A stretch of DNA of 64,000 nt from assembly GCF_921293095.1 (NCBI RefSeq), contig NC_060251.1:61211585-61275584 (forward strand), given 5' to 3'. Origin of the DNA: Ischnura elegans (taxonomy: Eukaryota > Arthropoda > Insecta > Odonata > Coenagrionidae). Position 1 is the first letter of the stretch; every line of letters begins with the position of its first letter. The notes beneath the pieces are model-generated. The model saw nothing but the letters and a program-made list of their open reading frames with translations. It was not told the origin of the DNA and ran no database searches. Below are positions 4,181 to 63,942 of this stretch, piece by piece. A program made the translations under genes and the position numbers.

Positions 4181-7100
4181 CTACGCTTTCTCTTCCACTT
4201 GCGAGGGGCTCACTATCTTCCCATGAAGAGTGCGCATGTGACGAATCAGATTGCTTTTCACGTTGAAGCCTTTGTGGCATACATCACATTCAAATGGCTT
4301 CTCCCCAGTGTGTGTTCTTATATGGATGAGAAGCGATGCATTCGAGTAAAATCTTTTTGAACACGATGGGCACACATGAGTCCGATGACTCATCGAGGCA
4401 CCCTCTCCTCCAGATCTCCATTGCTGCCTCGCCTTCCGTGAGTTTCGCCACGGGTCAGGATCTGGACAAGATTACCATACCACACAAAAATTACGAATAT
4501 TAGTCAGAATATTCAGAGAAATAGGACAAATAATTGACAGGTACCTACCACCTTTTCTGAAGAAACATGGATTAATGAATGTGGAACAAGAAGAAACGGG
4601 AGAATTTCTACATGGCCATTTACAGGATTAATGTCCGAGAAATGTATGTGTGAAGATAATTAAATAAAACCTATTAGGTGATTAAACTTAAGAAATCTTT
4701 TTTGTAAATGAAAAAGAGAAGTTTAAGTAGCTCTGACACTAACAAATATTTTGAAATATGATTTTTCCTCTGCATAATTCTCAATTTTTTCTGACTCAAT
4801 TTTCTGAAAGCATATATTAATTCACCAATACAAATCTGCTTAAAGAGGATGAAAAATCCACAGAGGAAAAATCATTTGCCTTGACCGGGATTCCAACCAG
4901 GATCTCCCAATTTCCAGTCGAGTGGTTTAGCCAGTTAAGACACCTAGGAGTCATTCTCCTCAGCGGAAATTTGAGGACTACAGTGGACTAGGTGGTGTGG
5001 ACTGTTGAGCCTATGATGCGACAAGTAGTCCAAATTGTGCAAACAGCACCACAGCTTGAGAACAAAGCCAGAACTTTGAACACATAGAGGTGTTTGCTCT
5101 TGACTGCGCACTCGACCAGAAATCGGAAGATCTAAATCCCAGTCAAGACAAATGATTTTTTCTGTGGATTTTTCACACAATTTGTACACTGCGGGTGACA
5201 CTATAAATTTATCACCATGGCCAGTCCCAGGATACTTAAATTATCTGTTCAAATATTTAAAACCAACAATGAAAAATAGTTCATTTCAGAGAGTCATGCT
5301 CTCGTGCTTCCTCACTCACTCCATCCCTTTAGAGACAAGCCAACCTTAGAAAATCCCCCAACCCAGCCAAATACTGCTACAAATTTTCATTTCCTCACCC
5401 ATTCCAATCCCACTGCATTCCAATTCCCACCTCTCACAACTTCCTTCCTCTGCACCCGATTATTCTACACCAGTAGTTCCCAACTGATGGTACCTGACAA
5501 ACCAGTCAGGGGTGCACCGAAAATAATCGGTAATGGCAGATGCAATGAACTATGTATCTCTTAACCAGGAAATATGTATACATATTACATGGGATATTTC
5601 AAAAAGTTTCTATTTACACAATTATTTATAACTAAAAGTGTCACCTACCCGTGATGAAATTAAGTAATAAAATGTGTACGTTACATTTTTAGGGGTAGCA
5701 TTAGTTATACACATATATAAAGGGGGACGCGAGGAAAAAATGGATGGGAAGCAAGATGTAACAATTTTAATAAACCTATCTTGCCTATTAAACATTGTAA
5801 CTAAACCTTGCTAAATGTGATTCTTTTATTAACCATGAAACATCTGACTGCAACTTGAGAATATTTAAGGTTGACTAAGGGTTATTTTTAAAAAAATTGA
5901 GGACTTTTGTAAGATATGGAAGGGGACTCATTTGGAAAGTAATTCCACTGTAATGACTTGGTGAAATTAATTAGTTTGAAAGTTGGCTTCACATGATCTA
6001 CAATACAACTAAAATTCATCGAGACAAAACTAGTCCATATAAAATTCAGACAAGACAATACAATTTATAAAGTTAATCCAACTTAAAAATGTATACTTCT
6101 TGCACTAATGAAATATGCATACCGTTTGGCAACATGGAAGGAGGATGTGTCTTCAGATGCCGAACCCAAGCTGCGGCCGAGAGAAATGTTTCTGAGCAAA
6201 AGTCACACGTCAGAGGCATAGTCTGCCCAAACTCCTCATCTTCCTCCTCTTCAACGTCCAACATCTCCACTTCAGTTCCTGACTTCCCCTCCATTGCTCC
6301 ATATTCTCCATCCCCATCATTGGATAATTCAATGTCCTGAATGCCAAGAAAATATCATGCTATAGTATGTATTTTTAGAATTAAATTTTTAGAAATACAT
6401 ATACTCATACACAGTCAATAGGGTGGTTTCCTATTATTTTTTTATTGCCTAAATCGAAAGATAAATACTCCTGGAGTACGTATTTCGCGCTTTTAGATTT
6501 TTAAATGACGATATCTATTTTTCGCGATTAAATGAAAAGTGAAAATTTTCAAGCGCGCAAAAACGCGACGCGTAAGTAGGAAAGTCCGTGCGACGCATTT
6601 CTGGTTCCCCCTCTCTCCTTGTGAAGTGACCTTGATCGAGGCTCTGAGCGCTGATAGGACGCAGGATGCTAGCGGATAGCTGAGTACCTTGCTGAATGGT
6701 AGCGCTTGGCTTAAAAAAGGTTTATTAATACCTTATCAAACGAAGAAAACTTTCCGACCTTAGCCAGTTTTAATAGGTGATTATTAAGACATGTTTCCCT
6801 GAGCTCTGTGCCCCATGCATGCATTGGTAACCTCAGACGATGTATAACTCCTATCCTCTCGTGTAGAAACTAGGTCCCTGTGACGTCACGCGGAGTGGAA
6901 TCGCATGGGCGCCAATCTGGCCTTTTTCAAATGAGGATAAAATTTGACCCTTGCCATTCATCTAAACCGGTATTTCTAAAACCAAATAATTTGTGTATTA
7001 TGAATACACTAATGGTGGGTAACGAATCGCAATCAATGCCTATCGTTTTCTTTGATGAAGGAAACTACCCTATTATTTACTGGCAAATAAAATGCTATTC

Positions 7101-13100: not shown

Positions 13101-16100
13101 TGCGCTATCCCCTAGTGCTGATGACGTGATATCACATCATGTGTACCCCTAGCGTTCCAGCCCTCTGTAAGAGCTCTGTTCAGTTCTACTCTGACCTTTT
13201 TCACCCCTAAGTTGCTCAGTGGGGATCTAGCAGCGCCTTTGTGAACACCGCCTCAAGCAACCTTTCCTGGGAGGATCGGGAGAAATATTTTTCTTTTAAC
13301 TTAAGGTAAGCCAAACTCCATTCATTTTCCCCCCTGTATTGTATGCTTTTATTTTTATTTATTTCTATTAATGCGTGAGTATGACAAATTATATTTGAGT
13401 TTTATTTTACAAATCAAAAGTATTTACTCTCTGGAACTTAATTAGGTGTGTTTATTAATTTTATATTCTGTTTTTATTATGTTTAGCGAGATTATAAATA
13501 TTTTTTTTTCCATCCTTCCTTTTTTCTTCTTGCGAGTCTAGTATTTTTCAAACGTTTATTGTCTGACTTTAATAAGTTTTATTCAATTAATACATGAAGT
13601 ACTGTGATTAGTTAAACTTTAATAAAAATTTGAAATAGCCAATACATTTTATTTATGCAACGTAACATATCTCTAACTTTTGCGCCCTTCCCTTGTTTGT
13701 CAGTGCAGTGTCCTAAGCAGTGAGGCGATCGACAAGCGGCAATATTACGAGTGAGAAGAAAATTATTCATGGAAAAAGTGTAAGTTATTAATAACATTTA
13801 TAGTTGATATATGTATATTATGCACCTATAAACATTCTTAAAATAATTGCAAATAATTGTTTGCACATTATACCATGGCTTGGCGAAGAAGAGATTCTTA
13901 GGAGTTGCTTTATAAAACTACTTTTATTCTCTCGATAACAGTGAAATCAATGGCTTATGGGTGCTCTCCATTCTTAGTCTCACCACTGTAAACATTTAGT
14001 TCCTATAGATAGTTTTACATAAGTAAAGCTGTTTGTAGCATTTCAGCTTTGGCCTATTTCACCGAGAGTGTTTATTTTTATCCTGTTATTTATCGGAATT
14101 TTTACAAAAATATAAAATGTAATTATTGCAGATGGTATGGAAGCGAGGAGTAAAACAGAAAATTTTGCATGTTGGCCTGTAGTTGATACCGCATCCTGTT
14201 ATTTATCGGAATTTTTACAAAAATATAAAATGTAATTATTGCAGATGGTATGGAAGCGAGGAGTAAAACAGAAAATTTTGCATGTTGGCCTGTAGTTGAT
14301 ACCGCCTGAAAGAGGTGAAATTCCCTATTCATCAGCCTCTGCCGATGATCAGCAGTCTTCGACCTCACATCAGGACCTGCAGCCATCGATGTCGAGGGAG
14401 GTAACCTCCGCAAGGACACAAACATTTCCTTCCGAGCTCTCTGCCTTCTCTAGGTGAATGTACAGGAAGGAGGAATAGTGGGAGCTCCTAGAAGAGAGCG
14501 GGATCCGGCATTCTCTGAAGACTCTGAGTTAGAAATTAGCAAGGAGGAGGGTGGAGATTTCCCTTAATAAATTCCGTCTTTCTGTCATTAGATCCTTTAT
14601 TCTTCCATCCTACATTCCTTATCCCAAGCCACTTTTACCATCAATATCTCAATCTCACTTCCCTGAACTCATCCAAGAGGAAGGTGGCAGAAAGAAGTAT
14701 TGATGGTGCAAGTATTGCACTATTGTGGTGCAAGCACTCTTGGGTGTAGGAAAGAGACCGCATATATCTACACTGGCTGTAAGGATTATCCTCTACTCTG
14801 TCCTGAGCTTTTTTCTTTCTTTCATAAGAAGGCATAAATAGTATTATATACTTTAGTATCATATATTGTAAATAGTATTATAGGTTAAATATATTGTTAT
14901 AAAATTTGTGAGAGCGGTATTTCCAACATTGGTAAAACATACATGACTGCATGTCGTTGTGTATAATATATAACTTGGAATTGGTCATCATTTCGATTGT
15001 ATTGAATTTGTTTTGGGTAAAGATAATATTTTTTCATGTCATATGATTCCTTTTTTCAATAGACTAGGGCTTTTACATAAATAAGAAGTAACTAGAGATT
15101 TCCAAGCACCATGGAATTAATCTTTCCCTCGTGTAATTAGAAAGAAAACGCCATTGTTACTTTCGGTAATCAGGTACGTAATAAGGGGCATAGATGCTGC
15201 AAATCTATTCCTAGCAATACATATTATTGAATGGTTTACTCGAATTAACATTATTATGCACCAAATGAAAAAATATTATTGCGGTAAAAATTTACATAAT
15301 TTTCAGATTTTTGCAGAATATTCGCAGTAAGAACCGCGATACGTGGCCTAAATGAAGATTACTTGTGAGATGCTTGCTTGCAAATACTATTAGTTCCAGT
15401 TTTTATGTATTAATATTCAACTCGGTCACATCATATTGCAAAAATATGTTATTGAGTTGAGTTCAGAAGATAGTAATGAGGAAGTTATGGGTAGATTATT
15501 TCTGTTTCCACATCCATTTTTATTGCGGCAACGGAGTCTATAACCCAATGACCCAAAAAGGACACCTATCAGCAAAATCTTTCCTCATACCTTCCCCATC
15601 ATTTTGATGTGCCGATGGCACTCCCAAAAAAGCTATTCCTAGTTCTTACAAGCGGACCGACTAAATCTTACTATCACTCATCTCCGTACCCACTCCAACC
15701 TTAGAACAGCCAGCAGGAGTGGTGCACGTCAAGAGACACCCTAATACACCGTCGGAAAATAATCTCAAAAGCCGAGTGCCACCCATCTCAAGAACCTGCA
15801 GTGAAGGGAATACATAATGGTAGGTGAAAACCATTTTTGTTAAATATCTGATGCTTACGGGTGGTCGTATGGGAAGAAAGGAATTGGAGCTGAAAAAAAG
15901 AAACTAGTAAAGGAATTTGTGACGAGAATAGTAGCTTGAGAAGAAAATGTAGAAATTCTTCGATATTATAGCACCCTACCCCGATACTTAGGATTACTAG
16001 TACAAGGAATATGCGGAAATATCTTATGCAGAATTACCATCCCAATGAAACAGCAGTTCACGGCGATTCCTTGTACTTATAACTTGCATTACATCCATCT

Positions 16101-19100
16101 AAACCAAAAATTTCCCTATGGCAGTGGCAAAATACCAAAGGCGATACCAGTAGAACATTAAAAATTCATTTTCCTCGTATTTTTTTGGATACATAGGGCA
16201 GAAAAAAGCATTGAAAGAAAACGGTGGCATGGGGTATGCAACCCGCATCACGTGCCTATCCTGCTGTGCGGGTGACGTGATATCACTGGGTCATTCCACG
16301 TCAAATCACCCGGAAATTTTCAAAATGACACCCACCGACTCGGATTTTAATGAAATTTTTGTCACTAGCTACTATCACCTATCTAATGACCCATGTAAAA
16401 TATTTCCTCTCTCACTCTCATAGTTTGCAAGATATGAGGAGTCAAAGTTTGATATGTTTGCTCAGAAGTGGCGCTAGTGGGAGTCAAATTCCAGAGTGCA
16501 GGGCACAGCGTAAAAATTCATAACTCAGAAACCACATAATATATTTGAATGAAATTTTGACCCCTTGTCTATCCAAGTGCATAGCTTCCATAGTAATGTC
16601 TTTTATTCCCCTTGCATTGTTATGTTAGCCAAAATGATGTCAACAGTTGTTAATTGACCGATTTTTTTAGCTCAAAAACATTACTTCATATTTTCAGAAT
16701 TATCACCAAAAGGCAGAGCAGTTAACTCATCCAATTTTTTTTTAAATTGAAGGTTAATATGTGCTCCAATATACTGTGAAATAAAAATGGTGGTGTTTTG
16801 ACTGCCACTATGAGTATTTCAGGTTTTACTTTTTTTTCTGCCCCCGTGAGAGGGATTTTGGACACGTACTGTAAGACAATAAGTATAAGTGTATCCATAC
16901 CTTCATGAGGATATATTTGAAATATTGGTCAGTAAATCTAAGACCAAACATGTAGTCTAGTGAATGTGGCTCTTGTTCATACAATTTTTTTAATAACAAT
17001 ACTTGGCTTGTGGCAGCTGAGGGGAAAAGAGTCCAAATGGCTCAGAAATGTGAAATGATGCTTTTTCCTGGAATTTACCCATTTTTTCAAGTGTTTAGCA
17101 TAGGGACAAATTGGTATCAACATACATTAGACTCTTACTGTGCATTAAGAGGATAAATGGAAATACTTATTTAAATAAAATTATTTAAATAATACACTTC
17201 AATGTGTTTAAGGCATCTCCCAAACATCTCTGGAGGCTCTCTCGGGCAACTAAACGCTTTACAATACCACCAATTCCATCACATGGGGATTTTCCATATG
17301 GGTGCATAAATTTCACTTTCACATCATGTTCTTCCTCGTGTTTAGAAATCACTAATCCAAAAAACCAGTGGTCATCATAAGCACATGCAATGTTCAAGTT
17401 TGTTAAGATCTGTGAAAAAGTGATTAAATGAGTCCCACTGAACTGGAGTTGTACAAAGTTAGCCTCACTTTCACAGAAGAAGTATGGTCTTCCAAACCCT
17501 TGGTGATGGAAGAGCTGGCAGAGCAATTGTATTACTTATAGATATGCAGCAGGCTGTCATCAATATCCACATTCCTTGATGGCAACTGGAGTATTAAATT
17601 TCTATTTCACTGGGAGAGATAATGCTGACATTATGTGCCACATTGTTTTCTCCCCTGCCTCACATATGATTGTATTACATGACAAACTTGAGAAGGTAAT
17701 ACAATCCCACCTATTCAGCATCACTTTTCAGTGTTATTCCATCTCCCCAAGGAATAAGAGAATTAAGTGCAACCTCTACATTAGGAAGAATAAAATGTTA
17801 CAATGTATCACAGTGAGGGCATGATAAATCAAAATAGATTCTAGGGTACCACTTTTAGTCTTCTGCCAAATCTTCTTGTGTGAAGATGCTCCATGGGTGT
17901 CCAAGTTTATTCTGTGTGTACGATCCGTGTATTTTTACCTGTACATTAATTGTGTGTGCAATGAGTTAGGCGAAGCTGCTCATTGTGAACTTCAACATTA
18001 AAAAAGGTTGGTGTCTCCACTATGATTCAAAATGAGCAAATTTTTTAACTGTGCAGCATCGAAAAGTAACTGCATCTGATTGCCTCAAAAAAACCTACAC
18101 ACCAGTGGTGCAACTGAACAAAATTGAGATCATTAGTATACTTGAAAAACAGCTGTTATCTCTCAGAAGTGGTGTACCTGGGGAAGTCCTATCCAATGTC
18201 TGCGAACATCACAGAATATACTATTTGAAAAAGTATGAAACCTACCAAATATATTGTCTTGATCCTTTTAACAGCAACAAGAAGAAAATATCAAAATCAC
18301 TGAGAAATGTAAGTCTTGAATTTGCAGAAAAGGCCTGTAAACTCCCAATTCTTCGGAAATTAGTGCCAGGAATGAAAATATGCCAGCCATGTAGGGAGGA
18401 AGTACAGAAACACTCCAGGTTTGGAAATGAGCTTTCCGATGTTGAAGAAGTAGATAGTGACAGCAATGATAGTATTTTGAATTTTGAAACAACAGTATCC
18501 CAAGAAAAATCAACTGAGCTACTTAACAGAACGCTGCAAGATAGAGAGGAGTCACCTTTACAATTTCATGGCATATCATCTCACAGAAGGTCAACCTACG
18601 CTAAAAGGAAAGTAGAGTCAGCATGCAGTAATTTTAAAAGGAAAGTTAAAAGAGTTCTTGATAAAGAATTATCTCCAGAAAAGGATGACCCAAAACTGCC
18701 AAAAGAACTACTTCAGAAAGTTCATGATATGGATGTGCTCATAGACTTAATCAAACAAAAAGTTGACACATCAAGCACTCATCAAGGAAAGGTACATCTG
18801 TTATCATTGGTACCAACTTCATGGAGCAGGAAGAAAGTAATGGAAGAGTTTCATGTGAGTGAGTACACTGCCCGCCAAGCAAGAGAACTTTTCAGAGACA
18901 ATGGAAAATTGGCTGCACCTGAATTGAGAAAAGGGAAGGCAAATATAAAACATTACAATTAGTTAGGACTTTCTATAAAAGTGAAGAGTACTCCAGAATG
19001 ATACCTGGAAAGAAAGATTCCATTAGTATCTCCAAAAATGTACATGTTCAGAAGAGATTATTACTTGCTAACTTGAAGGAATTGTATTCCACTTTTAAAT

Positions 19101-22100
19101 TTGACTTCCCCAGAATTAAAATTGGCTTTTCTAACTTCTGCAACCTAGGTCCAAAATGGTTTGTGGTAGCAGGTTCTCCTGGAACGCATTCAGTGTGTGT
19201 TTGCACAAGTCATTAAAATGTCAACTTACTGCTTAATGCCTGTAATATAGAGGAAACAAGCCAGGACCTAATTGGTTATTTAGTGTGCTCTAGAAAAAAT
19301 AGGGACTGTATACTGCGACATTGCTCTCAGTGTCCTTCACGTGAAAAGTTGAAAAGCTTACTGCTGAAAAAGCTTGAAGAATGTGACCCCGGAGATGAAG
19401 TTTCATACAGTCAGTGGGTTTCCCGTGACAGATCTCAACTGGTGAACTTCACTGCGACATTTGATGAGTACTGATTAACTTTAATTGAAAGAGTGGAAAA
19501 ACTGCTGCCCCATTCATTTATTTTGAAGGTACAGGCAAACTACCTTAAGCAAATGAAAGAAAATCTTGGACCCCATGATGCAGTTGTTCTCCTTGACTTC
19601 AATGAGAACTACTCATATGTTATCAAAGATGAGGCACAAGGGTATCACTGGACAAGGGATAGTTGTACGGTACACCCTGTTGTGATTTATACTCGAGATC
19701 ACCTGACTAAACAGCTTATTATTTCCAGTTTATGCATCTTGTCAGATGATTTGGAGCATGATGTAGCTTTTGTTTATGAAACCCAAAGAATAATATTTTG
19801 CTTTGTGAAGGAAAATTTTACGTGAGTCAAAAAATTGAGTTACTTTAGTGATGGTTGTGCAGGACGGTACAAGAACTGCAAAAAATTTCTCAATCTTTGC
19901 AAGCATTACCAGGATTTCTCTTTAATGGCATCATGGACATTCTTTGCTACAAGCCATGTAAAATCCCCATGTGATGGAATTGGTGGTATTGTAAAGCGTT
20001 TAGTTGCCCGAGAGAGCCTCCAGAGATGTTTGGGAGATGCCTTAAACACATTGAAGTGTATTATTTAAATAATTTTATTTAAATAAGTATTTCCATTTAT
20101 CCTCTTAATGCACAGTAAGAGTCTAATGTATGTTGATACCAATTTGTCCCTATGCTAAACACTTGAAAAAATGGGTAAATTCCAGGAAAAAGCATCATTT
20201 CACATTTCTGAGCCATTTGGACTCTTTTCCCCTCAGCTGCCACAAGCCAAGTATTGTTATTAAAAAAATTGTATGAACAAGAGCCACATTCACTAGACTA
20301 CATGTTTGGTCTTAGATTTACTGACCAATATTTCAAATATATCCTCATGAAGGTATGGATACACTTATACTTATTGTCTTACAGTACGTGTCCAAAATCC
20401 CTCTCACGGGGGCAGAAAAAAAAGTAAAACCTGAAATACTCATAGTGGCAGTCAAAACACCACCATTTTTATTTCACAGTATATTGGAGCACATATTAAC
20501 CTTCAATTTAAAAAAAAATTGGATGAGTTAACTGCTCTGCCTTTTGGTGATAATTCTGAAAATATGAAGTAATGTTTTTGAGCTAAAAAAATCGGTCAAT
20601 TAACAACTGTTGACATCATTTTGGCTAACATAACAATGCAAGGGGAATAAAAGACATTACTATGGAAGCTATGCACTTGGATAGACAAGGGGTCAAAATT
20701 TCATTCAAATATATTATGTGGTTTCTGAGTTATGAATTTTTACGCTGTGCCCTGCACTCTGGAATTTGACTCCCACTAGCGCCACTTCTGAGCAAACATA
20801 TCAAACTTTGACTCCTCATATCTTGCAAACTATGAGAGTGAGAGAGGAAATATTTTACATGGGTCATTAGATAGGTGATAGTAGCTAGTGATAAAAATTT
20901 CATTAAAATCCGAGTCGGTGGGTGCCATGCCTGGGTGAACTGACATGGAATGACCCCACTTCATAAATAAAATAAATTCATAGCTAACAAATTAGAGCCA
21001 AGAAAATTTTTTCATTATTTTTCCCAGCTCTTTTGGCACCCATGCATGCGTTTTGCATTAAAAAACGACAGCTGCACCAGGGGACCATTTTGAGTTTTAC
21101 ATGGTCAGCATTGAAAGTGTTAATACTGTATTAACAGGCTGTCTTCAGACGTTTACCTTTAAGTGCTTTGTTGTAATCAAGTGAAAGTTTTTGATGCTTT
21201 ATTTTTGGCATTCTGTCGTCTCTTTTGAAAGGTGTGCAAACCCCGTAAACCCTGATCGACTCTGAGACCTCATGTTCTGGAGGATTGAATCAGCTGAGGT
21301 TCACGGTGTGTTTTCCATGGATTTCTGCTCAAGTATCAATAGTTTATTTTTGAGAGAAGTTGGTCAGCAGCAAGAAAGGGAAGATTCAATCCAAAATATT
21401 TGAAGGAAATCAATCGATTCGGCTATTACTTTGTGAAAATCCATGTTGAAATGAAAATACACAACCCTGGTAACTTTCCACTGGAAAATTATTTATTGGT
21501 ACCAGAGAAAAGTTACCAAGGTTGTGTATTTTCATTTCACATCTGCAGGACTTTGATAAAGGCCATTAAATTTTGAGCCATTTGTGTCTGCATTTCATGT
21601 TTGTGTTTCCTAGTCCTAGCAAATTAATCCCCACACAGTAATTTCCCAAAATTTATCTACAGGGTCAGCAACATATGTATTTGGTTTCATGTGGACGCAA
21701 TGGGATGGTCCCAAATGAGGATGTTACCTCAATGCTTAACAATAGAGCAGGCAACGCCTGAAGGAACATTATACTTAAGCATCTGTGAAATGCCACTGGA
21801 ATGCAAGATAAACCCTTATCTCCTGCCTAAGTATTGCATTGCTCAGCGAACAATCACGAAATGCTATTAAAGACATCGTGGAGAACATTCAACGAAACCC
21901 AAAGAAACCTCACCAAGATAAAAAACATTCACGGAATGCTAGGGAAACAATTGGAAATTTTAACATACGCTCACAGAATGCCTGATGCATTTACGTTTGT
22001 GCTCATTTAACACCTACTTTGGGAATAGCTCAACAATAACAGCACTTTATGGAAGCTTTAGAAAACATATCAGGAATGCATAATTTGCTGTCTCAAAAAC

Positions 22101-23585: not shown

Positions 23586-26500
23586 ATGGCAGGTAAGAAT
23601 CCTTCCATAAGGCTTGCATCTGTGCAACCTTTGCCTCCTTGATTGGGCTTAATAATTTCCAGAGGAGTTGACAGTTTACATGGGTCGCTCCTGATTGATA
23701 ACAACATTGTATTCATGTTTTGATTTTCACCCGAATTCGTAATGGTTGTATAATGTGTCATGTCTATTTTCCATCCTTTCATTTTTTATACTCGTAGATG
23801 AACTCGGGAAAGGACTGGAAAGTCTATGTTTAGCTGTTGAGAAGAAATCTGACAATATTCATGTTGTACTCGAATCTTTGATATCTACAATACAGAAATC
23901 TGGTGATGGTGAGTAATTTATGTCTTAGGTGATAATTACTTTTCCGGCTCACAGCCGTATTATGCTGTGTTTTTATATTATATTCTGAAAGGTTACTACC
24001 TACGTACAGCGAATTTTACTTGGTCCAGCCTAGTGATACAAATTAAATTTTTGTATATATATCCCACTATTTGGTTCAAAGTATAGATTTGGGTATCAAG
24101 ACCCAGTATATCTGAATATTTGGCGTTAAGTGTCTCAAATTTAATGTATATATATTCATTGTGTAGGAATAAATCATGTATTGAATGCGTTTCTTTCTAC
24201 ACATTATGAAGCCCTGAAATTCACAGAGTAGAAATTAGTTACTATAGACGTGACGTACAGAGTTTCATAAAATCATGCATAAAAGGCTTCCACGTTTAGA
24301 TTATTTTTATGTATGTCTTTGTACGTTCAAATGATTTAATTTCCTAGTGAATATACAAATTCACCGACCAATTTAAGCCAGGAACTAATTTTTAAATAGA
24401 AGAGTGAAATTAAAACCAATTTTTAAATAGATATTATTGAAAAAGGTGGTTATAGGGGATCATGTTGCCGCCTCGCCAATCTGTTTTCATTATTGATAAT
24501 TTCTTTGGGGCTTTTTTTATGACTTAATTTTCTGTCATAATACTTTTTCCTCCCACGTTTAATCACTTACGTTTTTTCTTTTCGGGGCTAAGAGTAAAGA
24601 AATATTCCAGGGTAATGCTTATTCTATCAACTTTTTCAAATTCTAATATTCCTTATTGTTTTAAGTCTTTTTTACCTTTTCAATTAATTGGATTGTTTCC
24701 GATGCCCTATATTTACAAGATTCATTATTTGAATGGCCTGCTACTCATAAGTTTATACATTTGACCTATTTTAAAGCCACACCCTTAAAGTATGTTGGCA
24801 ACCTTTTACTATTGCTTCAAGGCCTGTATTTCAGTTATGGAAGAGAATGTCTAAGGAATACTTAATGCAGATTTTTTTTAATCATGCAAATTACCTGTAA
24901 CACAATGATTAGGTAAACATGTTTGAAAGACGGGACAAGCATTAAATGTTTGGACTTCCACAGGTATTTTATAGCCAAAATTAGCCAAATGGGTTTAGCC
25001 GTTTTCGAGTGTTTGCGAGAAGAACTGCAATTGATTTATGGGTCATTCCATGTCAGTTCATCCAGGCATGACACCCACCGACTCGGATTTTGATGAAACT
25101 TGGCAGTTTTCATCCTTCCATGTAGGAATAAAACGGTGTAAAATATTTCTTGGCTATCTCTAATAGTTTTTTTTTTCACGGCCATTTGAAGTTTGGGTGA
25201 AACTGCAGTTTTTCAATGAATGCGGTCTCACTTGTACCTCCAGGGGGAAATAATTTGTCTCGGCCATAGTTTTCATCCGGTTCTTATGAAGTTTGCAGGT
25301 TTACTATAGAAGTCATGAGGATTCCAAAAACTAATTGATAAATATCCTAAGGGATATTGGAAATTCTCTAAACTCATATGTTTCATAAGATTTAAGAAAA
25401 TTTTGTGTCAAAAACATGGTTCTATAAAACATCAAATTTTGACCTGAGGCAATATCTGAATCAAGCTAAATTATTTTTTCTAATATTCCTTAAAGTATGA
25501 CCTGTAAAAATAAAATTCATGGCTTTTTGCTTGCTTTGTTGTTAAAAAAAATTTTATGTAAAAAAATCCCTTTTCACGACTCTGGTAGTCAAGAGTTGGG
25601 TCCTCCTTCAAGTGTGATGAAATGCTTGTGTTAACTGTTTTCTATATCTGAGAAAATATTTACAACCTGAATCTAGTACATAATAAGTTAAAAAATTAAA
25701 ACATTTTTTATCTGCAGGTTGTTTTTCTCCCGATAAGAAGAATATATTTTTGAAATAGAATATTTTAAGGAATTCATAGCACTTACCCATCATTGCTGTA
25801 GATAACTTGATTGTTGCTTTATAAAACACATCAAAATACATGGTACATGTCAATACAAGTTAACTTTCTCCATTTTGTATTGACAAAAAACTTTAGAATG
25901 TGTTTGAACAAAAAGGTTTGCAAAGTACTGGATAAATATTTCCTTCCAGAGCATGATTCAGAAGTTATTGATAAAGCAAGTGATATGGATGTGCTAGTTG
26001 GGTTACTAAAAGAAAAACTGGTGACAGCAGGCAGTCGGGGAGAGATAATTCAGCTACTAACACTAGCTCCGACTTCATGGAGTAGGAAAAAAAGTAGCCA
26101 ACGAATTTAATGTTAGTGAATACACAATTCGCCAAGCTAGGGAACTTATAAGAATGAAAGGCATCATAGCCATACCAGATCCAAGGAGGGGCAAAAACAT
26201 AGAACAAACTGTAGTGGACTTAGTTCAGTCATTTTACCAAAATGACGAGTATTCACGCCTTATGCCAGGAATGAAAGATAAGAAAATAAATGTATACATA
26301 GATAGATACAAAGGTGACGTGAAGTTCACCGGGTCATCTAGTTTGTTATAAAATAGACTTATTAAAATCCATCCTATCTCCTGGGTACTTCTCTGGCATA
26401 TGGCACTCAGTTCCTTTTCTTCTGCTATTCCCTGGTACACCATCTCGTTTCATACCCAATCTGTTTATTTGATGTACGGGTTTAGATTACAAAAACTAAA

Positions 26501-35500: not shown

Positions 35501-38500
35501 TTCATTGCCTATCATTCTTCAGGTATTGGCATTGAGTCCTGCCTGGACTTGTTGGGCAGCATGGAGAATAGGTAGAGTCACCACCCGTTAATGGGCATGC
35601 CATGGTCATAATATCTTCCATGTTCAGTAAAACCTCCATACAATGAATTTGTTAGGACTGAAAAATCATGACTTTGCTGTAGGGAGTTTTGCTATCACCA
35701 CATCAGTTTCAATCTGTGATTTCAAATTGAAGTGATTGCTTTCCTCAACGATCCAGGTCTATGATTCTTTGCGTACTTTAGTTAGTCTGAAATTAAAGGA
35801 CCACAAAAAGTTATTCCTGTGGATTATGTATTTTCAAAGTGCTCTATGGTTTTGCTGAATATTTTATTTTATTTGTGGAGGGCAACAGTAAATAGCAATT
35901 GATTGTGTCATACTGGCGGCTATCTTCAACAGTTTTGCTCGAAAGAGTCCATATTACCATTAAGATTGACAAAATAAAATGAATGGTTGGAATCTCATTG
36001 CGATGCACACACATTTTTATGTTCAAGACCGATATTTACAAGATATTTTTGACAAGAAGATGTAAGTTAGATGGGTTGAGTTGTGCACCCAAGTAAATAT
36101 GAGGCTGTTGACAATGCACTGATGTCACAATGGCTATCACACATTCCTCTGCTTGCCCTTTATGAAAGAGGCAGCCCAATATTTATTGCACTGTTTGCGA
36201 TAAAATCCTTTCTTTGATCCATTCAAAGGTCAGTCTCCACAGAGAAACTCTGGAAGAGCAGATGTTTGTTTCTCTTGGCAGTTCTTCAATTGGTGAGCGA
36301 GATTATCCCATCTCTGGGAATGAGCATCATGTGATATTGTTATGTAGATATCATGTAATCAATGTTATGACATTGGGAATGCTAGTAGAGATTGTGTTAA
36401 TTGAAGGATCTTTATCTGCTGTTATTTACCATAAAACGAGAAAGAGGTTTGACAACTAAATTAAGGTTAGGAAGAAAATTATATCGCTCATATTAATCAA
36501 AACATCGCTGGTGATGATCAGTGGTCATGTCTTTTCAAAATTATATAGAACAGTGCTAGCAAACAAGCGGTGGGAATTCCTTATTGATAATGCAGGGGCT
36601 AGTTTTTTCCTATAGCTCCTGCTTGGTTGAAAAAGAAAGTTTCTTTCGTTGCACATTTTTGCAGCTATTTATAAAAATTCTACCCTTGTATCCTTCAACC
36701 CAATATCTCTTGAGGTTCAAACCTTGGTAATTTTAACCAGTCCCAGCAATGCAACTTTCCCTACTGCCATTTATCCTGCAGAGAGGTGCCATAATCCAGA
36801 GGTGGATTGAGGTGGGGAAAGGTAAGTACTCCTCCTCCTCCTACCCCATCCCTTCCCCTTAATTTTTGGAAAAATTGATAAAATGTAAACTCTAGGTTGT
36901 TTTTTCAATCTAGGTTTTTTTTATTTCACCACCATAACAAACAACTCGCGGCTGAGCTTAAAGCCACCGAGTGCGTCCACCGGGTTGCGGATGGTGGGTC
37001 GACCTTTAGATATAGAGGTTAGCTGCGAGATAAGCGAGTTCTCTCGTCGAATAAGCAGTCGTGGACAAAAAGCGGCGGTATTCTGAGGGGGTATTGGGCT
37101 ACCCTTGGGTAAGGTAGTCCATTTAAAAGATACCAAAACCTGTGAAGATACCGTGACTTGGCGACTGGGGGCCGCCAATAATTATGCCTCTCATCACCCG
37201 GGGGAGAGGGCAGCAGCTCTTCTTCACATGTGCGAAGGTGGAGACCATACTGGTTGGTACAGCGACACACATTCCACTACGGGCGTGGTAACATTTACTT
37301 TAACGGCTGTAGTACTGCGATGTGGAAGGCAAGGGGAAACCACCACATTATCATCCCGAGGAGTCACAGCTACTCCACTCAATTTATTTAATGACATGAT
37401 GGAATTCTCTCGGGTAAAATATTCCGGAGGTAAACTAGTCCCCCATTCGGATCTCCGGGCGGGGACTACTCGAGAGGGTACATCGGTCAAAAGAGATAGA
37501 ATGTTACGGATAGGAACATGGAACGTCAGATCACTTCGTACCTGCGGTAAGCTAGAGAACTTGAAGGTGGAGATGCGAAGAATGAACCTCGATGTATTAG
37601 GCATCAGCGAAATGAAGTGGCCCCAGGAAGGAGACTTTTGGAGTGGAAGCTACAGAATGATACACACGGGATCGCTAAATGGTAATGCTGGAGTAGGCAT
37701 AATGCTTAGAAAGAGTGCCGGGATGCGTATTAAAAGCTACCTGCAGTTTAATGAAAGGATAGTAATGGTGAAGATAGATACTAAACCCGTAGCTACTGTA
37801 GTGGTACAGGTTTACATGCCTACGTCAGATTATGAAGACGAAGAAGTAGAAGATGTCTACCAAGATATAGCGGAAGTTATCAAGCAGGTAAGAGGGGAAG
37901 AAAATCTTATTATTTTAGGGGACTGGAACGCTGTCGTCGGCGAAGGTCAAGACGGAATAATAACTGGGAAATATGGGTTAGGTAACCGAAATGAAAGAGG
38001 AGAAAGGCTACTTGAATTCTGCACGGAGCACAGGCTAGTGGTTGCTAACACTTTATTCAAAAATCCCCTGCGAAGAAGATACACGTGGAAGATGCCAGGA
38101 GACCGTAGAAGATTCCAAATCGACTACATTCTAGTGAAACAAAGATTCAGGAACCAGGTGAAGGATTGCAAAAGCTATCCAGGGGCAGATATCGATAGTG
38201 ACCATAACCTAGTTATGATGAAATGCCACCTTAAATTTAAAAAGTTGAAGAAAGCCGTGAAAAACATATGGCAGGTTGAAAAATTGAGGGAGGTTCAGCA
38301 TCAACTGGCTTTTAAAGAGGCTGTAGAAAATAAAATAGGGGAGGATCCGACCAACAAACCAATGGAAGAGAGTTGGAAAACCATTAGAAGTGGTCTGCAG
38401 GCAGCGGCTGAGGAAGTTCTTGGTAAAAGAAGAGTCGTAATGAAAAAACCATGGATCACGCAGGAAGTATTAGATCTCATTGAAGAAAGAAGAAAATACA

Positions 38501-41500
38501 AGGCTGCGAAAACAGAGGAAGGACAGAATCGTTACAAGAGGATAAGGAACGAAATATGTCGTAAAGCGCGGAAGGCTAGAGAAACGTGGATGAAAAGCAT
38601 TTGCGAAGACGTGCAAAACAATCTTAAACATGGAAAAGTAGAGGCCGCTTATAGGATAGTGAGGAACCACTTTAAGGAAAGGGGCGTAAGATGTAATACC
38701 CTTAGGGACAAAAACGGAGAACTATTGATTGAAAACGAAGAAAAAGGGAAGAGATGGAAGGAATATCTGGAAGATTTGTACAAAGGAAGTCGCCTCAGAA
38801 CGAATGCTATCGAAAACGAGAGGGAAGTGGATGCCGATGACATGGGAGCCCCAATTTTAAGATCGGAATTTGATGCGGCTGTAAGAGACCTCAGGATAAA
38901 TAAAGCGTCTGGCATTGATGACATTCCTGCAGAACTAATCAAAAATTCAGGAGAGAAGACGTTGAGCCAGCTATACAAAATCATTAGTGAAATGTATACG
39001 ACAGGTGAGATACCAAAGGATTTCGAGAGGAACATTATAATCCCTATTCCTAAGAAGAAACGAGCGGAGAAGTGCGAAGATTTTAGGACCATAAGCCTTA
39101 CTACACATGCATCAAAGATACTGACAAGGATCATCTATAGAAGAATAGAACGAAAAGCAGAAGAGTACTTGGATGAGGACCAATTTGGATTCAGGAAAAA
39201 CAAAGGCACAAGGGAAGCAATATTGGCCCTAAGACTGCTCATAGAAAAGAGAATGGAAAAGAACAAGCCAACATTCGTTGCGTTTGTGGACTTAGAGAAA
39301 GCATTTGACAACGTGGATTGGAGCACAATGCTTGGAATCCTAAAGGAAATTGGGGTTCTTTATAATGACAGAAGAATCATCCACAGTTTATACAAAAACC
39401 AAATAGCCGTGATAAAATCAGGGCCCAGCTGTGAAGAAGCAAGAATTAAGAAAGGAGTGCGACAAGGCTGTACATTGTCACCCGTAATTTTCAACGTTTA
39501 CATTGAAAAAGCCATTAAGGAAATCAAAGAAAAGGCATTGGGAGTGAATATCCATGGAGAAAAAATAAGCATGCTAAGATTTGCCGATGACATAGCCGTT
39601 ATAGCAGAAACAGAGAAGGATTTGAAAAATGTTCTGGTTAATATGGGTAGGGTAATGAGTAGATATCAACTGAAAATAAGCACGAAGAAAACCAAGATCT
39701 TAGTATGCAGCAGAAGAGAAGAAGTCAAGACCAACATTAAAATAGGGAGGCAAAAACTGATAGAAGTGGATGAATTCTGTTATTTGGGAAGCAAGATAAC
39801 TAGTGACGGGAGAAGCAAGAAAGAAATTATCAGCAGAATAGCCCAGGCGAAGAGAGCATTCCACCAAAAGAGAGACCTGCTTACAGCGGGAAACTTAAAT
39901 ATGGATGTAAAGAAACAATTTATAAGAACCTACATCTGGAGTATGCTCCTATACGGAAGTGAGGCATGGACAATGACCGCAGCGGAGAAAGCAAGGATAG
40001 AGGCCTTTGAAATGTGGTGCTACAGAAGAATGATGAAAATCAAATGGATCGACCGAGTTAGTAACGAGGAAGTCCTAAGAAGGGTAGGAGAGAAGAGAAG
40101 CCTCATGAAAACCTTAATAAGAAGACGGAACAACCTTATAGGCCACATCTTGAGACATGATGGCCTGATGAAGACAATCGTCGAAGGACAGACGGAAGGC
40201 AAGAATGGAAAAGGAAGACCTCGAACAAAATATATGGAACAAGTAAAGAGAGATGTGAAAGAGAAGAAATACGTAGGAGTGAAAAGATTAGCTGATAGGA
40301 GAACTGAGTGGAGAGCTGCGTCAAACCAATCCTAGGATTGTTGACCAGTGATGATGATAACAAACAATGTCTAAAAGTTTATTGCTTAATATGGGAAAAC
40401 CATTTGTCTCCACATACCAGACCATAGATACATTATTACTTATAATCAAGGCATTGTGAAAAGTAAAGTTCAGAGTGGAGGGGTTATAACACAGCGCACT
40501 CCACTACAGTTTACTCCCTGCTTATTGCAACAATATATAGGGAGAAAATTACCTGGAAAAGCTTAATATTATGTTTCTTTTACAAAAAATTGTTATAGAT
40601 GTGCACCTTTTTTCTTTTGGTCCAAAGTCCAGACTTCAGTTTTCAGATTTTTAGAAATTAGATAGGTTGGTTACAGGTGTGTTTTTACATGCATTGTAAT
40701 TGGAAGGGCCAGAACCATACAATTTGAAAATAATCAGGTTTCCGCTAAAGTTTGCTGAATGGGACTTCGTTGTATAGAGGTTTTACTGTAATTATATTTA
40801 CTCTCAGTGTATTCCTTCTTTGTATTTATGTGTTTGCATGCCTCTCAACTGCATTTCTTCACTATGGTAATCTTACAGACTCAATATTGTTGTATGAATT
40901 AATTTTTCATTAATCAAGCATTTCAGCACAGGATTGTAGAGTTCATATCCTTGTTGAAGAAAAAGGTCTTTAAAAAAATTGTTCTTAAGAAAACTTGGCA
41001 AAGTCATGAAAGTGAGTTGATTAATTTAGGGAAACTTGGAAGAAAAAAGAAATTGTGAAGAACTGGAGGATGCATGCCGTGAAAATGCAATCTTGAAACA
41101 TGATGCCTCATGTATAGGCAAGAAATAGAACTTGTGAATGGTGAAAAAGTCTTTTAGTATAATATTTCATGTGTCTTATTGTGAGAAATTGTCGGGAGAA
41201 GGTTGTATGGAAAGCTGAATAGCTTCGTAGAAGAAGAAGGGCATGATTTTAGATGAAGGGTTGGAGCTAGAAATGCCATTGGGCTACTTCAGGTTATTGT
41301 TGAGAATTACAACCAGAGGAACTACAAAGTATTCACTGTTTTCATGGATCTCAAAAAGGCTTTTGGTTGCTTTGGAAGGGATAAATCAATGGACAAACCT
41401 AAAGAAATACAGTGTAAACTTTGTGTAAAAAATGCTGTCTATACCTCTTAAAACCCTTGTTATATTTGAAGGTAAAATATGAAGCCCCTCAACTTCCATA

Positions 41501-59000: not shown

Positions 59001-62000
59001 ATCCATATGCGTGATAAAGATCTTTAAAGTCAGTAATCATGTATAACTTTGCTGAAAATCTGTTTCCCCGGACTAATGCTTATTAGCCTTGAGAAAATAC
59101 TTGCTAATATTGTTCCCATATTGCAAAGAATTTGAGTGCCTTGCTGGACCATGGGGGAGTACTCAACCTCCATTGGCATTGTATTTACTTTGGTTTTATA
59201 CAGTGCGTACCTCTTATGGTAGGGCATTTAGAGGAGGCAACCAACAGTTAAAGTCATACGTAAGATTAGGGGAGGGAAGGCAGAGAGAAATCTGGCAGTG
59301 GTATTAGCCCACTTTTAATGAAAGGCACCAAGGGTACCATGGCTTAATGTCCGATCTTACCGACAGGGTGCTGTGCATGAAGTACCCTCCACAAAGCACT
59401 CAAGCAGGGATCAGGCTCTGTCTTTCAAGAAGCACCACCATCACCAGGATTTGAAAAGGCCGGGACGCCAACACTCTAGCCACCACACCAACTCAATCTA
59501 CGTGTGTACCTCTTATTTGAAATGTTAGGTTAGCTGCAGACGATCTAATTCAAATTGACATCTACTTACATAATTATCATCTGCGTTAACTCATTTTACT
59601 TCTTATTGTTGAGAAAAGGGAGACAGCTAGAAGACAGGGAAATAGATATTTTTTCTTTGGTACAAGGAGAAGGTGCTCAACTATTAATGATACTTAAAAT
59701 TACCTGTTACAATTGTCTTTCTCAGCCATGTAGTAGATAATATATTGGTATTATTCCCATCCGGATACTCATGTTAAATATATGAAGTAATGGATGGGGA
59801 TACATTTAATGATGAAGCATTTAGGTTACTTTTTTGATTTCTTTCGTCTATTTACCCCATCACTGCAGTTAATTTATTATATTCCTATGGAGTACTGTGC
59901 ATTTAAAAAAAAATCAATTTGAAGAAGGCACCAATTAGCAGCATGCATATCTATACCTATATTATGTAACGAAAGTTTGGATATTTTAAAATTTGATTGC
60001 ATTTGTAAGCTTTAAGTTACAACTGCAGAAAAGCTTGATGTATCAGTTTTTTTGTAAGTTTTAGTCACAACTTTTTTCATGAAAAAAATATCTCAGAACT
60101 GTAATCGGGTTTTCATCACGAAATAGTTGATGCTTTGACGTTTTACATTTCTTTCATTTATAGAGTCAAAGGGTTCAAGGAGGTCAACTGTCACCTAGTA
60201 ACATGCAAGTTAATTCCCAATTGTCTGCATCTCCTCAAGTAAGGCCATCATCTAGCAGTCCACATCAGAATGCAGGTTTACAAAGTGAAATGGAACTGAA
60301 GACCTCTGTTACAGGTATTTTTCAACTTTTCTATGTACCATGATATGCATAAATAGATCATTACATGTGGTTTTACTTAGTAAGTTGACCAAAGTATGTG
60401 TGCGAAAGAGCTTGTTTCTCTTGTACATGTACAGCCTGCCATTGGTCAATGCGATAATTAGATGGAATAAGGGTCTATGAGTCTTAAGCAACCATACCTG
60501 ATTTTTTTTATGGTTCCGGCAACTCATGAAATGTGTGATGTACTGTATTTCAAGAGTTTGTTTTATTTTCCTCTGCACACACGTTTTGTATAATATATGA
60601 TATTCCTTATCTTCTCTATGCAACAAAAAATGTTGGGAAAGAAAGTTTTATTGTAGGCTGTAACAATAATGGTTTGAGATGTGGTTGTCCTGAAAAAATT
60701 TACACATAGTATTCAAGTAAAGGGAGAATACCATATTTTGGATAAAGAGACACTAATCATGATGAGCAGTTGCATTTCAAACTCACTATATCAAATATAT
60801 TCCAATATTTCATTCATGAAATTACTCAAAATAGTGCTCCCTTTTAAAAAAAAAATTATTCCTTGGTGTTAGGCAACCCAAAATTCATGTGTGTATTTTT
60901 CTCTTTATGCTGTAGATATATCAATGGGAATGTTTCTCTAACCAACATCATGGCAGCAACTTCTTGATATGAGATGATTATTTTTGTTGCCTATGCTATA
61001 GCTGGTCCTTAAATTGATGGAAATAATTTAAAATGACAACCAAGCAATCATGCATCTTGTAACTTCCCCATTTCTTTTAGTAATTGTGATAAACTGTTTC
61101 CATGAATTGTATGGCATCAACTGATAAAAAACACTTAGTTATTCACGGCAGAAATGAGGAAAAATGTATGTATTGTCGATTACCTACTTGCTACAATAAT
61201 GACCTTGGAATGCACCATATTAAACATTAAATGCCTATGCCTATTAATTAAAATTAGGCATACAACTTGAGTTTTGGGGTCTCTTTTTTTGGTAGGATTT
61301 GAAAGTTTGCCGCAAAAAGTCTGGCAGGAGATATTTACAGATTTGGAAACAAAATGCCATCAGTATTATTGGCACACGTTGACAAGTTTTTCTGGGTGTT
61401 GCAATTTACAATAAAGAAAGTGTGACAAATAGATGCACCATAGTAAACTCAAAGTAGAGGTGGCAGTTTGAGGAAGTTCCAATGTGGTTTAAAAACTTGC
61501 CTCCCAAACTGCCCAGTTTGGTCTTTGTTTTTCTACTGTGAAATCTTTGTTTTTGCCTGGGAAGAAATTGAATATGAAGATTGATAAATTGAAAAAAATA
61601 GAATTGAATTGATTATGTGGGGAAGTAATTGAAGCATAAGAGAGAGACCTGTGCTAAATTTTTATAATTCCTCTAAAATGTAGCTTACAATGTAATATTA
61701 AAGGATGTGTTGCTCTAATATTGACTCTTGGAGAACTTAATTATCAATTTGTTTTTAATCACTGAATAATGTGCTAGTTATGTTAACATGTTAACTATAT
61801 CAATGCTCTTAATTGCAGGACTAGCAGCTAGTAATGGCCCTCCAGCCCCTTCATTGGACGTAGCGCATACATCTTCCATGCCAATGCAGCCTTCTACCTC
61901 CACACCTATCAAAAATCAATATTCAAATGTGCCAGGTTCATCAAGTCCAGTGCCAGGACCCGTTTCCCAATCTGCCAGTGTGCCAACCGCATCACCAGCT

Positions 62001-63362
62001 GCTCCGCATGGAAGTCTATATCCATCACCTCCCAATAGCATTCCTTCTCAGCTCTCTCCTGGACAGCAGGCGTCACCTGCTGGTTTGAAACCTCAACCAG
62101 CACCATCAAATATTCCTTTGGGCTCAGCACCTGCTCTTATTCCTGCTCAGTCATCAAGTGGTCCATTCCCAGCCCAATCATCAGGGGACCAGGCTGTTAA
62201 TAACCAGCCATCTTCTGGTCCTGTTCCCTCTCAATCCTTAGCAGGTCCAATGCCCCCTCAGCCTATGGCTGGATCAGGTCCGTTTCCTTCTTCCCATTCT
62301 ATGGGTGGTCCAATTCCTCCTCAGTCCTCTGGTGGGCCAAATCCACCACAGTTATCAGGTGCTCCATTTCCTTCGCAGTCTTCTGCAGCTCCATTTCCCC
62401 CCCAACCTCCAGGGGGCCCATTCCCACCGCAGCAGAAATCAGGGCAGTATCCTCCCCAATCATCTGCCGGTCCATTTTCCATGCAGCCATCGGCTGGGCA
62501 GTATCCATCTCAGTCCTTATCTGGTCCCCTTCCTCCACAGCTGAGCACAAGGTCCTTTCCAACCATGACACCGGGTGGCCAGTTTCCTCCCAGACCTCCA
62601 GCGGGTCCATATTATGGGCCTCAAGGCTCTGGTCCTATGCCACCACCCCAGTCCTCGGGCCCATTTTCCTCTCCATCTTCCGCCAGCGGTCCTTTTATGA
62701 GTCAGCCCCCAGGTGGTGGTCCGCCATCATCAGCCTCGTTCCCTCCTTCCATTCCGAACCCTCCAATACAGTCATCCAGTTCCTACCCTCCTTTCTCTTC
62801 TGCCACATCTCCTCCGTCGTCCTCAGCTCAGGTGCAGTCGCAGCCCTATCCCTCGTTCCCCTCCAATGCCCCTCCAAGCAGGCCACCCTTTCCCCAATCT
62901 TCCAGTCAGCAGTACACACCTCCAATGTCCCAGCCCCAATTCCCTCCCTCCTCTGCGAGTAGCTCACTCTCCAGTCCTCCTGGGCCCTTCAACTCCCCTC
63001 CTGCCTATGCACAGTCTCCGCAGTATATGTCTGGTCCTCAACCCCCTCCCTCTTTGCACCCGATTGCACCCCCTGGGAGTAGTATGCCTCCTCGTCCCCC
63101 CATGCCTTCTCAGTATCCCCCGCGTCCTTCCTTCCCACCCGCAAATCAGCCCGGCAATTGGGCTCAGGCCAATGGCATTCCTAGCCAACTCCAAGCGGAG
63201 TCCATCACTCGTCAACCAGTGCCAAGTGGTGTGCCAATGTACCAGCAAGGGTCACAGCAGATGCCTCCAGGAATGCAGCAACCGTCTGGGATGGGTGGGA
63301 GTATGCAGCAAATGCCAATGAATGATACATCACAGCTTTCGAAGAGGTACTCTCAACCACAG
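56028..63362 (+). CDS. Pro/Ser/Gln-rich N-terminal part of a probable Sec24-family COPII coat protein (partial at 3' end)
   Basis: Four exons, 56028-56088, 56234-56478, 60164-60314 and 61819-63362, splice in phase (2001 nt, 667 residues) and end at a good donor, so the gene continues past the window. Start chosen: ATG at 56028, giving MSDPPEAGISSYNPP with an ideal donor (GTGAGT) after 61 nt. The protein is wholly low-complexity: a TNGQSN segment, a basic PPRPM stretch, then from about residue 150 repeats of SGPFPxQS type and a Met/Gln-rich tail. Sec24A/B proteins have long disordered P/S/Q-rich N-termini before the zinc finger and trunk that bind Sec23 and cargo; composition, TNG-type segment and length fit. 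No folded Sec24 domain is inside the window, so other Pro-rich proteins remain possible. A uORF (56021-56044) overlaps the start. Confidence 0.5.
57366..58092 (+). mobile_element. 5'-truncated Jockey/CR1-type LINE, 3' end
   Basis: Two frames, 57366-57611 and 57601-57951, with one frameshift near 57600, encode the C-terminal region downstream of the reverse transcriptase: HISKLRNKLSSTCFLIRRIR, SHIIFGILFWGSS, IFKIQKRIIRLM, KFIRTQNTSLGPKPMGLKIF and LKFLEKNLFYSVNDLL. These blocks are typical of insect Jockey/CR1-like elements. An ATAAA-containing 3' end is followed by an (ATT)n tail at about 58058-58092. The RT core is absent. Confidence 0.8.
58130..58560 (+). mobile_element. decayed RTE-type LINE fragment (C-terminal region)
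   Basis: Broken frames near 58255-58450 read YGLEMLMVREESELMEKLK, TWRKWNAKVLGKSKKK and ILEVADEWRWVTARRNIHF. Order and spacing match the YGSEAWTMTAAEK ... RRMMKIKW ... LLRRVGEKRSL ... RRNNLIGH region of the RTE protein. Heavily mutated; borders approximate. Confidence 0.4.
59325..59500 (-). mobile_element. tRNA-derived SINE, copy 2
   Basis: Minus-strand GTGGTGGCTAGAGTGTTGGC (A-box-like), TTTTCAAATCCTGG (B-box-like), CCTGCTTGAGTGCTTTGTGG, and a tail TTAAGCCATGGTACCC seen in many insect SINEs. In the third intron of the Sec24-like gene's visible part (56479-60163). Confidence 0.65.
60315..61818 (+). other. intron before the large Sec24-like exon
   Basis: 1.5 kb of AT-rich sequence between a GT donor at 60315 and the AG acceptor ending at 61818. 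Nothing else recognised. Confidence 0.6.
62151..62610 (+). repeat. coding minisatellite, ~27-bp unit, in the Sec24-like exon
   Basis: At least 13 imperfect copies of a nine-residue unit of the form GPFPPQSSA (variants GPIPPQSSG, APFPPQPPG, GQYPPQSSA, GPLPPQLST). It lies within the fourth visible exon, in frame. Confidence 0.75.
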
Positions 63363-63942
63363 GTGAGAATCAGTGCAAATTAACTCTTATAATGGAAGTA
63401 CCCAAGTATCAGCACTAGTTGATATTCGAACTTCTCTGTTTGATTGATAGTGAAATTTGAAGACATGTGTTGTAACTCAAGCATCTAATTGGCCTAAGTT
63501 TTCAAGATATTATCAATAGAAAGTTCTAATAAAGCACCTAGACTCATGCAACATACCACAATACTGCATTGGTAATATAGCTTCTTCTTTGCTATTTTAC
63601 GAACCTGGCAACAGGAGAAGAGTCTATGCGAGGAGCTCTACTAGGTACTGGTGTTTTGATGGTTGCATATATTTAGGGGTTTTGATAGCCCTTTCTATCG
63701 ATGATATCTTAGAAGGTCCATTGGATGCTTTAGTGAAATCACGTCTTAAAATTTCATTTTCCATAACACTGCAATATTTGAACATGATCTGGTGGTGACA
63801 CTATGGTACCTTCTCTTTTAAGATTCTAACAGTGAAGTATGACAGAACTGAGTTGTTTTTTGGTTAGGAGATTTGTAATGGGCCTGATAAGATGTCTCGT
63901 AATCCTATGCATTGTGCGTTCCACCAGAGAGTTGGTTTATAG
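63363..63942 (+). other. intron sequence at the 3' edge, Sec24-like gene
   Basis: Follows the GTGAGA donor at 63363. No further exon could be recognised before the window ends. Confidence 0.5.

Follow-up and report, generated by a model that had tools for sequence, protein, structure and literature searches.

Inverted arms of a foldback-like DNA transposon family in Ischnura elegans probably recombine and convert within elements

Results

Structure of the element and its arms

We analysed 64,000 nucleotides of Ischnura elegans DNA (NCBI RefSeq assembly GCF_921293095.1, contig NC_060251.1, positions 61,211,585 to 61,275,584 of the forward strand; hereafter the window), in which a transposon of 4,669 bp occupies positions 16288-20956. 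The element is a genuine insertion, because the tetranucleotide CACT stands on both sides of it as a perfect 4-bp target-site duplication (TSD) (Table 1). Its two arms form an inverted, gap-free alignment with 3 mismatches in 973 bp (99.7% identity), which is far above the level of chance similarity, and a 910-bp arm core (16381-17290) is identical in both. The outermost ~37 bp, in contrast, differ strongly between the two ends, and these tips are called L and R. No tandem-repeat family was found in the window arms at 25 nt or more, nor at a Tandem Repeats Finder (TRF) score of 120 or more. An earlier reading made from the letters of the DNA (the sequence-only reading) had described near-identical inverted arms with a more divergent outermost stretch, and had placed the end of arm identity inside transposase coding sequence. 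This description was accurate: the element boundaries it gave are exact, and the identity ends immediately ahead of the KSPCDGIGG motif.

Table 1. Features of the transposon in the window (unit positions are relative to the palindromic copy L060)
Feature	Position	Strand	Remarks
TSD CACT, left copy	16284..16287		
L tip	16288..16324	+	terminus GGGTCATTCCACGTCAAATCACCC..., unlike R tip
Left arm	16325..17297	+	inverted copy of 19956-20928; 3 mismatches/973 bp
C-terminal relic of the gene, antisense	17294..17539	-	unit 2675-2551 and 2849-2734
Segment X, about 300 bp	17540..17836		in L034 and L061
5' region and degenerate transposase gene	17837..20047	+	L060 unit 74-2289
Right arm	19956..20928	-	contiguous with transposase gene
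R tip	20929..20956	-	terminus GGGTCATTCCATGTCAGTTCACCCAGG, read inward
TSD CACT, right copy	20957..20960		

The left arm corresponds in antisense to L060 unit 3752-2877 plus 2289-2198, and unit positions 2290-2876 are absent from both window arms. The arms thus contain a piece of the transposase gene, as had been proposed, but it is a deleted piece rather than the true 3' end. Beyond that earlier description, an antisense C-terminal relic is present in the left half, fused to the left arm at about 17297. Segment X was not found in L060; its genome matches were listed at 40 places, many of them already known elements of the family, and it is possibly the remains of an older 5' region. The gene itself is interrupted by stops at codons 9, 400, 486 and 603, shows small deletions and has lost its C-terminal part. 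As judged from its sequence, the window copy is non-autonomous and could make no full transposase; with these stops and deletions it would move only if another copy supplied the enzyme, L060 being a candidate source.

The sequence-only reading had also proposed that the right end was copied in inverted orientation onto the left, with the old left terminus kept. Both parts agree with the structure, in which the tips are distinct. Because the gene-side arm is contiguous whereas the other arm ends at the abnormal junction at 17297, the gene side appears to have been copied onto the opposite one, and the right arm would be the donor in the founding event.

Distribution of the family in the genome

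The genome (1.72 Gb, 110 contigs) was searched with the left arm, for which the best 40 of 730 candidates were scored and 41 matches listed, and with a peptide spanning the arm junction, for which the best 150 of 925 candidates were scored and 150 matches listed. Counted by hand, about 100 of these listed peptide matches (150 in all) cross the same abnormal junction. Since so many do, the arms are to be taken from these sequences as family-wide and the founding arm event as older than the spread of the family. A recent copying event, by implication in the window copy alone, as first suggested, is therefore not supported. Long arms are indeed common to the fetched copies, but the even divergence along 1-kb arms in all copies that the sequence-only reading had set against its own proposal was not seen.

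We grouped loci L001-L059 into 34 distinct elements. A stop at codon 400 is present in all 27 family loci in which this codon is readable (23 elements without overlapping loci), and L061 lacks it; the family founder was probably already broken. All 17 elements with both ends available, L060 included, have one L and one R tip at their outer ends, and 14 of the 17, again including L060, are flanked by perfect 4-bp TSDs.

Homogenisation of the arms within elements

Arms were compared in 15 elements that have both of them, L037 being left out for want of a second arm. The two arms of one element differ at 0 to 4 of ~910 bp in 14 of the 15 elements, and at 11 in C3_118. The mean within-element difference was 2.27, compared with 15.26 for shuffled pairings, and none of 20,000 permutations gave a mean as low, which bears out the earlier suggestion of homogenised arms. 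The nearest arm to the first arm was strictly its own partner in 13 of 15 elements; C5_21 showed a tie and C3_118 failed. Substitutions private to one element were found on both arms in 52 cases and on one arm in 27 (6 of them in C3_118). Of the 27 single-arm changes, 20 fall within the ninth of the arm core next to its outer or its inner edge. Such a pattern is expected to be left by conversion or crossover inside the arm that fails near the edges of the core.

The R end of C3_118 (L030 2503-2696; C3:118.9 Mb) consists of a buried L tip, followed by ~110 bp of AT-rich sequence that does not resemble the element, and finally an R tip; the outer tips are flanked by the common TSD AAAT. The buried L tip is what would be expected if copying had run outward beyond the tip.

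Orientation of the interior

Neither the occurrence of the interior in both orientations nor the variable arm length and full palindrome described below formed part of the sequence-only reading. Orientation relative to the tips could be counted in 33 of the 34 elements (C1_111 has lost the relevant tip): the interior lies as in the window in 9 and inverted in 24. Three further copies, at C7:23.7, C2:34.5 and C7:118.0 Mb, look inverted from their positions alone and stand outside these counts. On a tree built from one arm per element, orientation changed 7 times, at least 5 of them forced by well-supported branches. Shuffled orientation labels required a mean of 8.0 changes, and 125 of 500 shuffles were as low as the observed 7, so that orientation is hardly less scattered on the tree than shuffled labels. 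Close relatives differ: C5_21, closely related to the window copy, has an inverted interior, and C6_27 and C3_59 form a supported pair with opposite orientations. C19_76 (L022) and C4_115 (L032) share the junction of a 240-bp arm extension and are also oriented oppositely; because the join is identical, a flip followed the extension. Both orientations occur among elements with perfect TSDs.

An assembly artefact from folded-back reads was considered and is unlikely, given that the two sides of L060 have different tips and a matching TSD and that both orientations have perfect-TSD representatives.

Cues to the ancestral orientation conflict. In most of the oriented copies the interior is inverted compared with the window copy. 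A second related fragment in the window (25040-26330) has an R-like tip, GGGTCATTCCATGTCAGTTCATCC, 5' of its gene, which is truncated and divergent and shares the helix-turn-helix region; the similarity of this fragment to the end of the main element fades beyond about 130 bp. An element inside L061 has an L-like tip in that place.

Arm extension and the palindrome L060

In three elements the arms are longer because additional transposase sequence has been duplicated across to the opposite side, where it replaces part of the interior: 96 bp in L035 and 240 bp in L032 and L022. No microhomology was seen at the joins of the 96-bp and 240-bp extensions.

L060 (C19:1274000-1283999) is a palindrome of 7.57 kb, with 3,739-bp arms that differ by 1 mismatch around a 26-nt centre. 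It has the TSD GACT and one L and one R tip, and tips were found at its two outer ends only. It carries two identical intact open reading frames (ORFs) of 867 aa, directed outward from the centre. In a tblastn search (best 52 of 2301 candidates scored), these two were the only rows to span the full protein with high identity and no stops; among the same 52, sister ORFs were open at three other places at 58% identity and at a fourth at 44%. Intact sister elements lie at C1:39,110,775, C2:964,636 and C2:115,685,672. On the R-tip side, an abundant genomic repeat continues from the arm through 24 of the 26 central nucleotides. Of 40 scored places of this repeat, 39 match the R-tip side only, and the whole 73-nt centre was matched at 1 of 40. 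Because the repeat runs on from the R-tip side only, we take the R-tip-side arm as the original and the L-tip-side arm as its copy. The window arms and the L060 arms are co-linear except for one deletion.

In L061, one side carries an antisense arm about 1.2 kb long, which reaches unit 2551; on the other side the gene runs to unit 2184, where another element breaks it at 6734. The C-terminal probe has a match 0.9 kb past the end of the L061 stretch. L061 may represent an earlier stage of palindrome formation. The element inserted from 6734 is a divergent sister with an L-like tip, lying inside an older copy of the family. Elsewhere, at C2:46541156 (-) and C2:46551883 (+), two C-terminal-probe matches with 90-91% identity to L060 face outward 10.7 kb apart, a candidate for an older palindrome with an insertion.

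The protein and its superfamily

The 867-aa protein matched no Pfam family above cut-off; HTH_23 was present below it, and the best match to a solved structure had an E value of 0.13. The literature search found no occurrence of the terminal motif or the protein motif, and there was no match in the plasmid collection or in Rfam. The name transposase is therefore putative: it rests on the anatomy of the family (distinct tips, TSDs and many copies), the sub-cut-off HTH_23 match and a resemblance to transposases.

Elements of the foldback type are known by long inverted arms, and these are present here (973-bp arms within 4,669 bp, and 3,739-bp arms in L060); arms made of tandem repeats, which occur in several such elements and are not obligatory, were not found at the thresholds given above. 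Kolobok elements duplicate the target TTAA, whereas the TSDs here include CACT, GTTA, GACT and CGTT. The Mutator superfamily has target duplications of 8-10 bp; those of the present family are 4 bp long, and the MULE transposase domain is not among the Pfam results above cut-off. Nor do the TSDs agree with the 7-bp duplication of the P superfamily (Galileo), since 14 of 17 elements have perfect 4-bp TSDs. A 4-bp duplication is shared with Sola2, for which PMC3627910 states this length and gives AT-rich TSDs for the elements it describes, as opposed to the mixed composition found here. The protein has 867 aa, compared with 888 aa given for Sola2. Membership in Sola2 is only a lead, drawn from TSD and protein length rather than from a comparison of transposase sequences.

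Discussion

Proposed mechanism

We consider it likely that the family is a DNA transposon of the cut-and-paste type with foldback-like long arms and non-identical tips L and R, and that its arms recombine and convert within elements, the copying sometimes running past the arm boundary. Breaks in the element, for example at excision or replication, would be repaired through invasion of one arm by the other. Crossing over between the arms would flip the interior, and a copying tract between them would homogenise them. Copying that ran inward past the arm boundary, with the new end joined to the remainder of the other side, would lengthen the arms and shorten the interior; carried to completion, it would produce a palindrome like L060, whose two transposase genes are identical and stand head to head. 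The difference between the tips would persist because of their position at the margin of the converted tract and, presumably, because one of each is needed for transposition.

The map suggests how the window copy could have arisen. An L061-like element would have lost unit 2290-2876 on its gene side, and a copy of the shortened gene-side arm, extending to unit 2198, would have been laid down on the opposite side and linked there to unit 2675, which would account for the fusion at about 17297. Spread of the family, with repeated flips, would have followed.

Several observations weigh against recombination and conversion within elements. L033, L034 and L037 (3 of the 17) lack a perfect TSD, so that exchange between elements also occurs or the sites have decayed. 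The arms of C3_118, with their 11 differences, are not each other's closest. The bins in which the single-arm substitutions cluster were picked by us afterwards, and private changes on both arms could partly derive from unsampled relatives. Homogenisation in place looks the same as homogenisation during transposition. The flips are inferred from comparison of different loci and were not observed at one locus, many of the 33 orientations come from one tip and its inner neighbour only, and the split of 24:9 departs from 1:1.

Alternative explanations

The alternative that survives best, although we think it unlikely, is that the double-gene form came first and that the window family is a remnant left by deletions inside one half of an L060-like ancestor. 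It would account for the co-linearity of the window and L060 arms but for one deletion, and for the restriction of full-length, high-identity, stop-free rows to the two of L060 among the best 52 of 2301. The palindrome itself, however, looks derived, because part of an unrelated repeat occupies its centre, segment X is retained by L061 and the window family but was not found in L060, L061 has an antisense arm of 1.2 kb opposite a gene that runs to unit 2184 before an insertion, and the intact sister ORFs of 58% identity occur singly at their loci.

Somewhat less probable still is that the orientation differences arose from exchange between elements or from end-swapping during transposition, instead of from crossing over between the two arms within an element. 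The elements without a perfect TSD would fit such events, as would the DNA unlike the element within one end of C3_118; yet perfect TSDs flank the great majority, and arms match their own partner and not the arms of other elements. Improbable, and largely refuted, is a one-off inverted duplication in the founder with arms simply inherited since and orientation differences due to assembly errors: the shared junction and the identical internal deletion in both arms agree with it, but it would make the arms older than the split between elements, although they are far closer within than between them, and it is at odds with orientations that differ among perfect-TSD elements, with one extension junction in both orientations and with variable arm length.

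A wider proposal, which we put forward only tentatively and rather doubt as a whole, is that recombination between arms of the kind preferred here would be routine in the life cycle of the family. It would yield two interior isomers, arms evolving in concert and, through repeated inward copying, the L060 palindrome. This would be the sole intact source of enzyme found in the genome for the subfamily, with its gene possibly shielded from decay by conversion.

Other features of the window

A 1,082-aa open frame at 37087-40335 resembles by eye a non-LTR (long terminal repeat) retrotransposon protein with endonuclease and reverse transcriptase. At 61770-63383, in a GC-rich stretch, lies a 537-aa frame rich in proline, serine and glutamine that, also by eye, resembles the N-terminus of a Sec24-type coat protein. 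A 113-bp unit is present at 14080-14305 in two exactly identical tandem copies.

Comparison with known systems

The single parts of this system are already known. What is unusual is their combination, the frequency of the flips and the two-gene palindrome, none of which we met in our searches of open-licence papers; a search for palindromic two-gene transposons found none, and one for flips and isomers listed two papers, neither of them, by title, on eukaryotic transposons. Composite transposons of the Tn5/Tn10 type have inverted arms that each carry a transposase gene, and L060 resembles them in this respect. However, tips were found in L060 at its two outer ends only, and therefore its arms are not separate insertion elements.

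Inversions between terminal inverted repeats (TIRs) are barely documented according to the available part of PMC3004938, which reports 2 of 22 loci in ISWpi1 of Wolbachia and cites earlier cases in one Tc1/mariner element in a baculovirus and in Tn5. In ISWpi1, as is proposed here, the interior is inverted relative to the flanks through recombination between inverted ends. ISWpi1 is nevertheless a bacterial insertion sequence (IS) with ends of about 23 bp, compared at the same locus across strains (PMC3004938), whereas the present family has 1-kb arms, a 9:24 split and no fewer than 5 changes deduced from comparing separate loci. In Medicago, the interior of one PIF/Harbinger element is inverted compared with a relative; in the text available to us this is a single copy, which its authors linked to a tandem-repeat region and not to long arms (PMC2213677).

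The foldback element Tetris of Drosophila virilis, as far as the accessible text describes it (PMC4079207), likewise has long inverted arms and rearranged non-autonomous forms. In contrast, the arms here contain transposase sequence and showed no tandem repeats at the thresholds used, and the subfamily includes an intact gene. In maize, Mu killer carries a partial inverted transposase duplication and two copies of one end, and its ~4 kb hairpin RNA is the proposed substrate for small interfering RNA (siRNA) in the portion of PMC3440606 consulted. It shares with the present family the inverted duplicate of a partial transposase gene; Mu killer is a rearranged MuDR derivative that silences, while our family is known from its DNA sequence alone. 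Silencing of the present family by siRNA or piRNA from a hairpin RNA, a possibility raised in the sequence-only reading, would be a hypothetical parallel.

A close likeness is with Galileo, a member of the P superfamily in Drosophila. In the excerpt of PMC3573991 at hand, its arms are 98-100% identical within a copy and variable in length, with inner sequence recruited into them, and the authors propose that one TIR is repaired from the other, with a tract running inward. The family described here shares the near-identical arms within a copy, the variable arm length and the internal sequence drawn into arms. It differs in its 4-bp instead of 7-bp flanking duplications; the excerpt further states that no functional transposase was found and that the longest arms occur only in copies without a transposase ORF. 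Interior flipping and a palindrome with two intact genes occur here and were not met in that part of the Galileo account.

The origin of foldback arms, and of long arms in unrelated transposon families, is an unsettled question. The present family has candidate intermediates together (short extensions, one junction in two orientations and a full palindrome), so that the sequences can show in what order the events took place. Flips between inverted ends can be counted in its many natural copies, and L060 provides a natural gene palindrome where conversion might keep a transposase intact.

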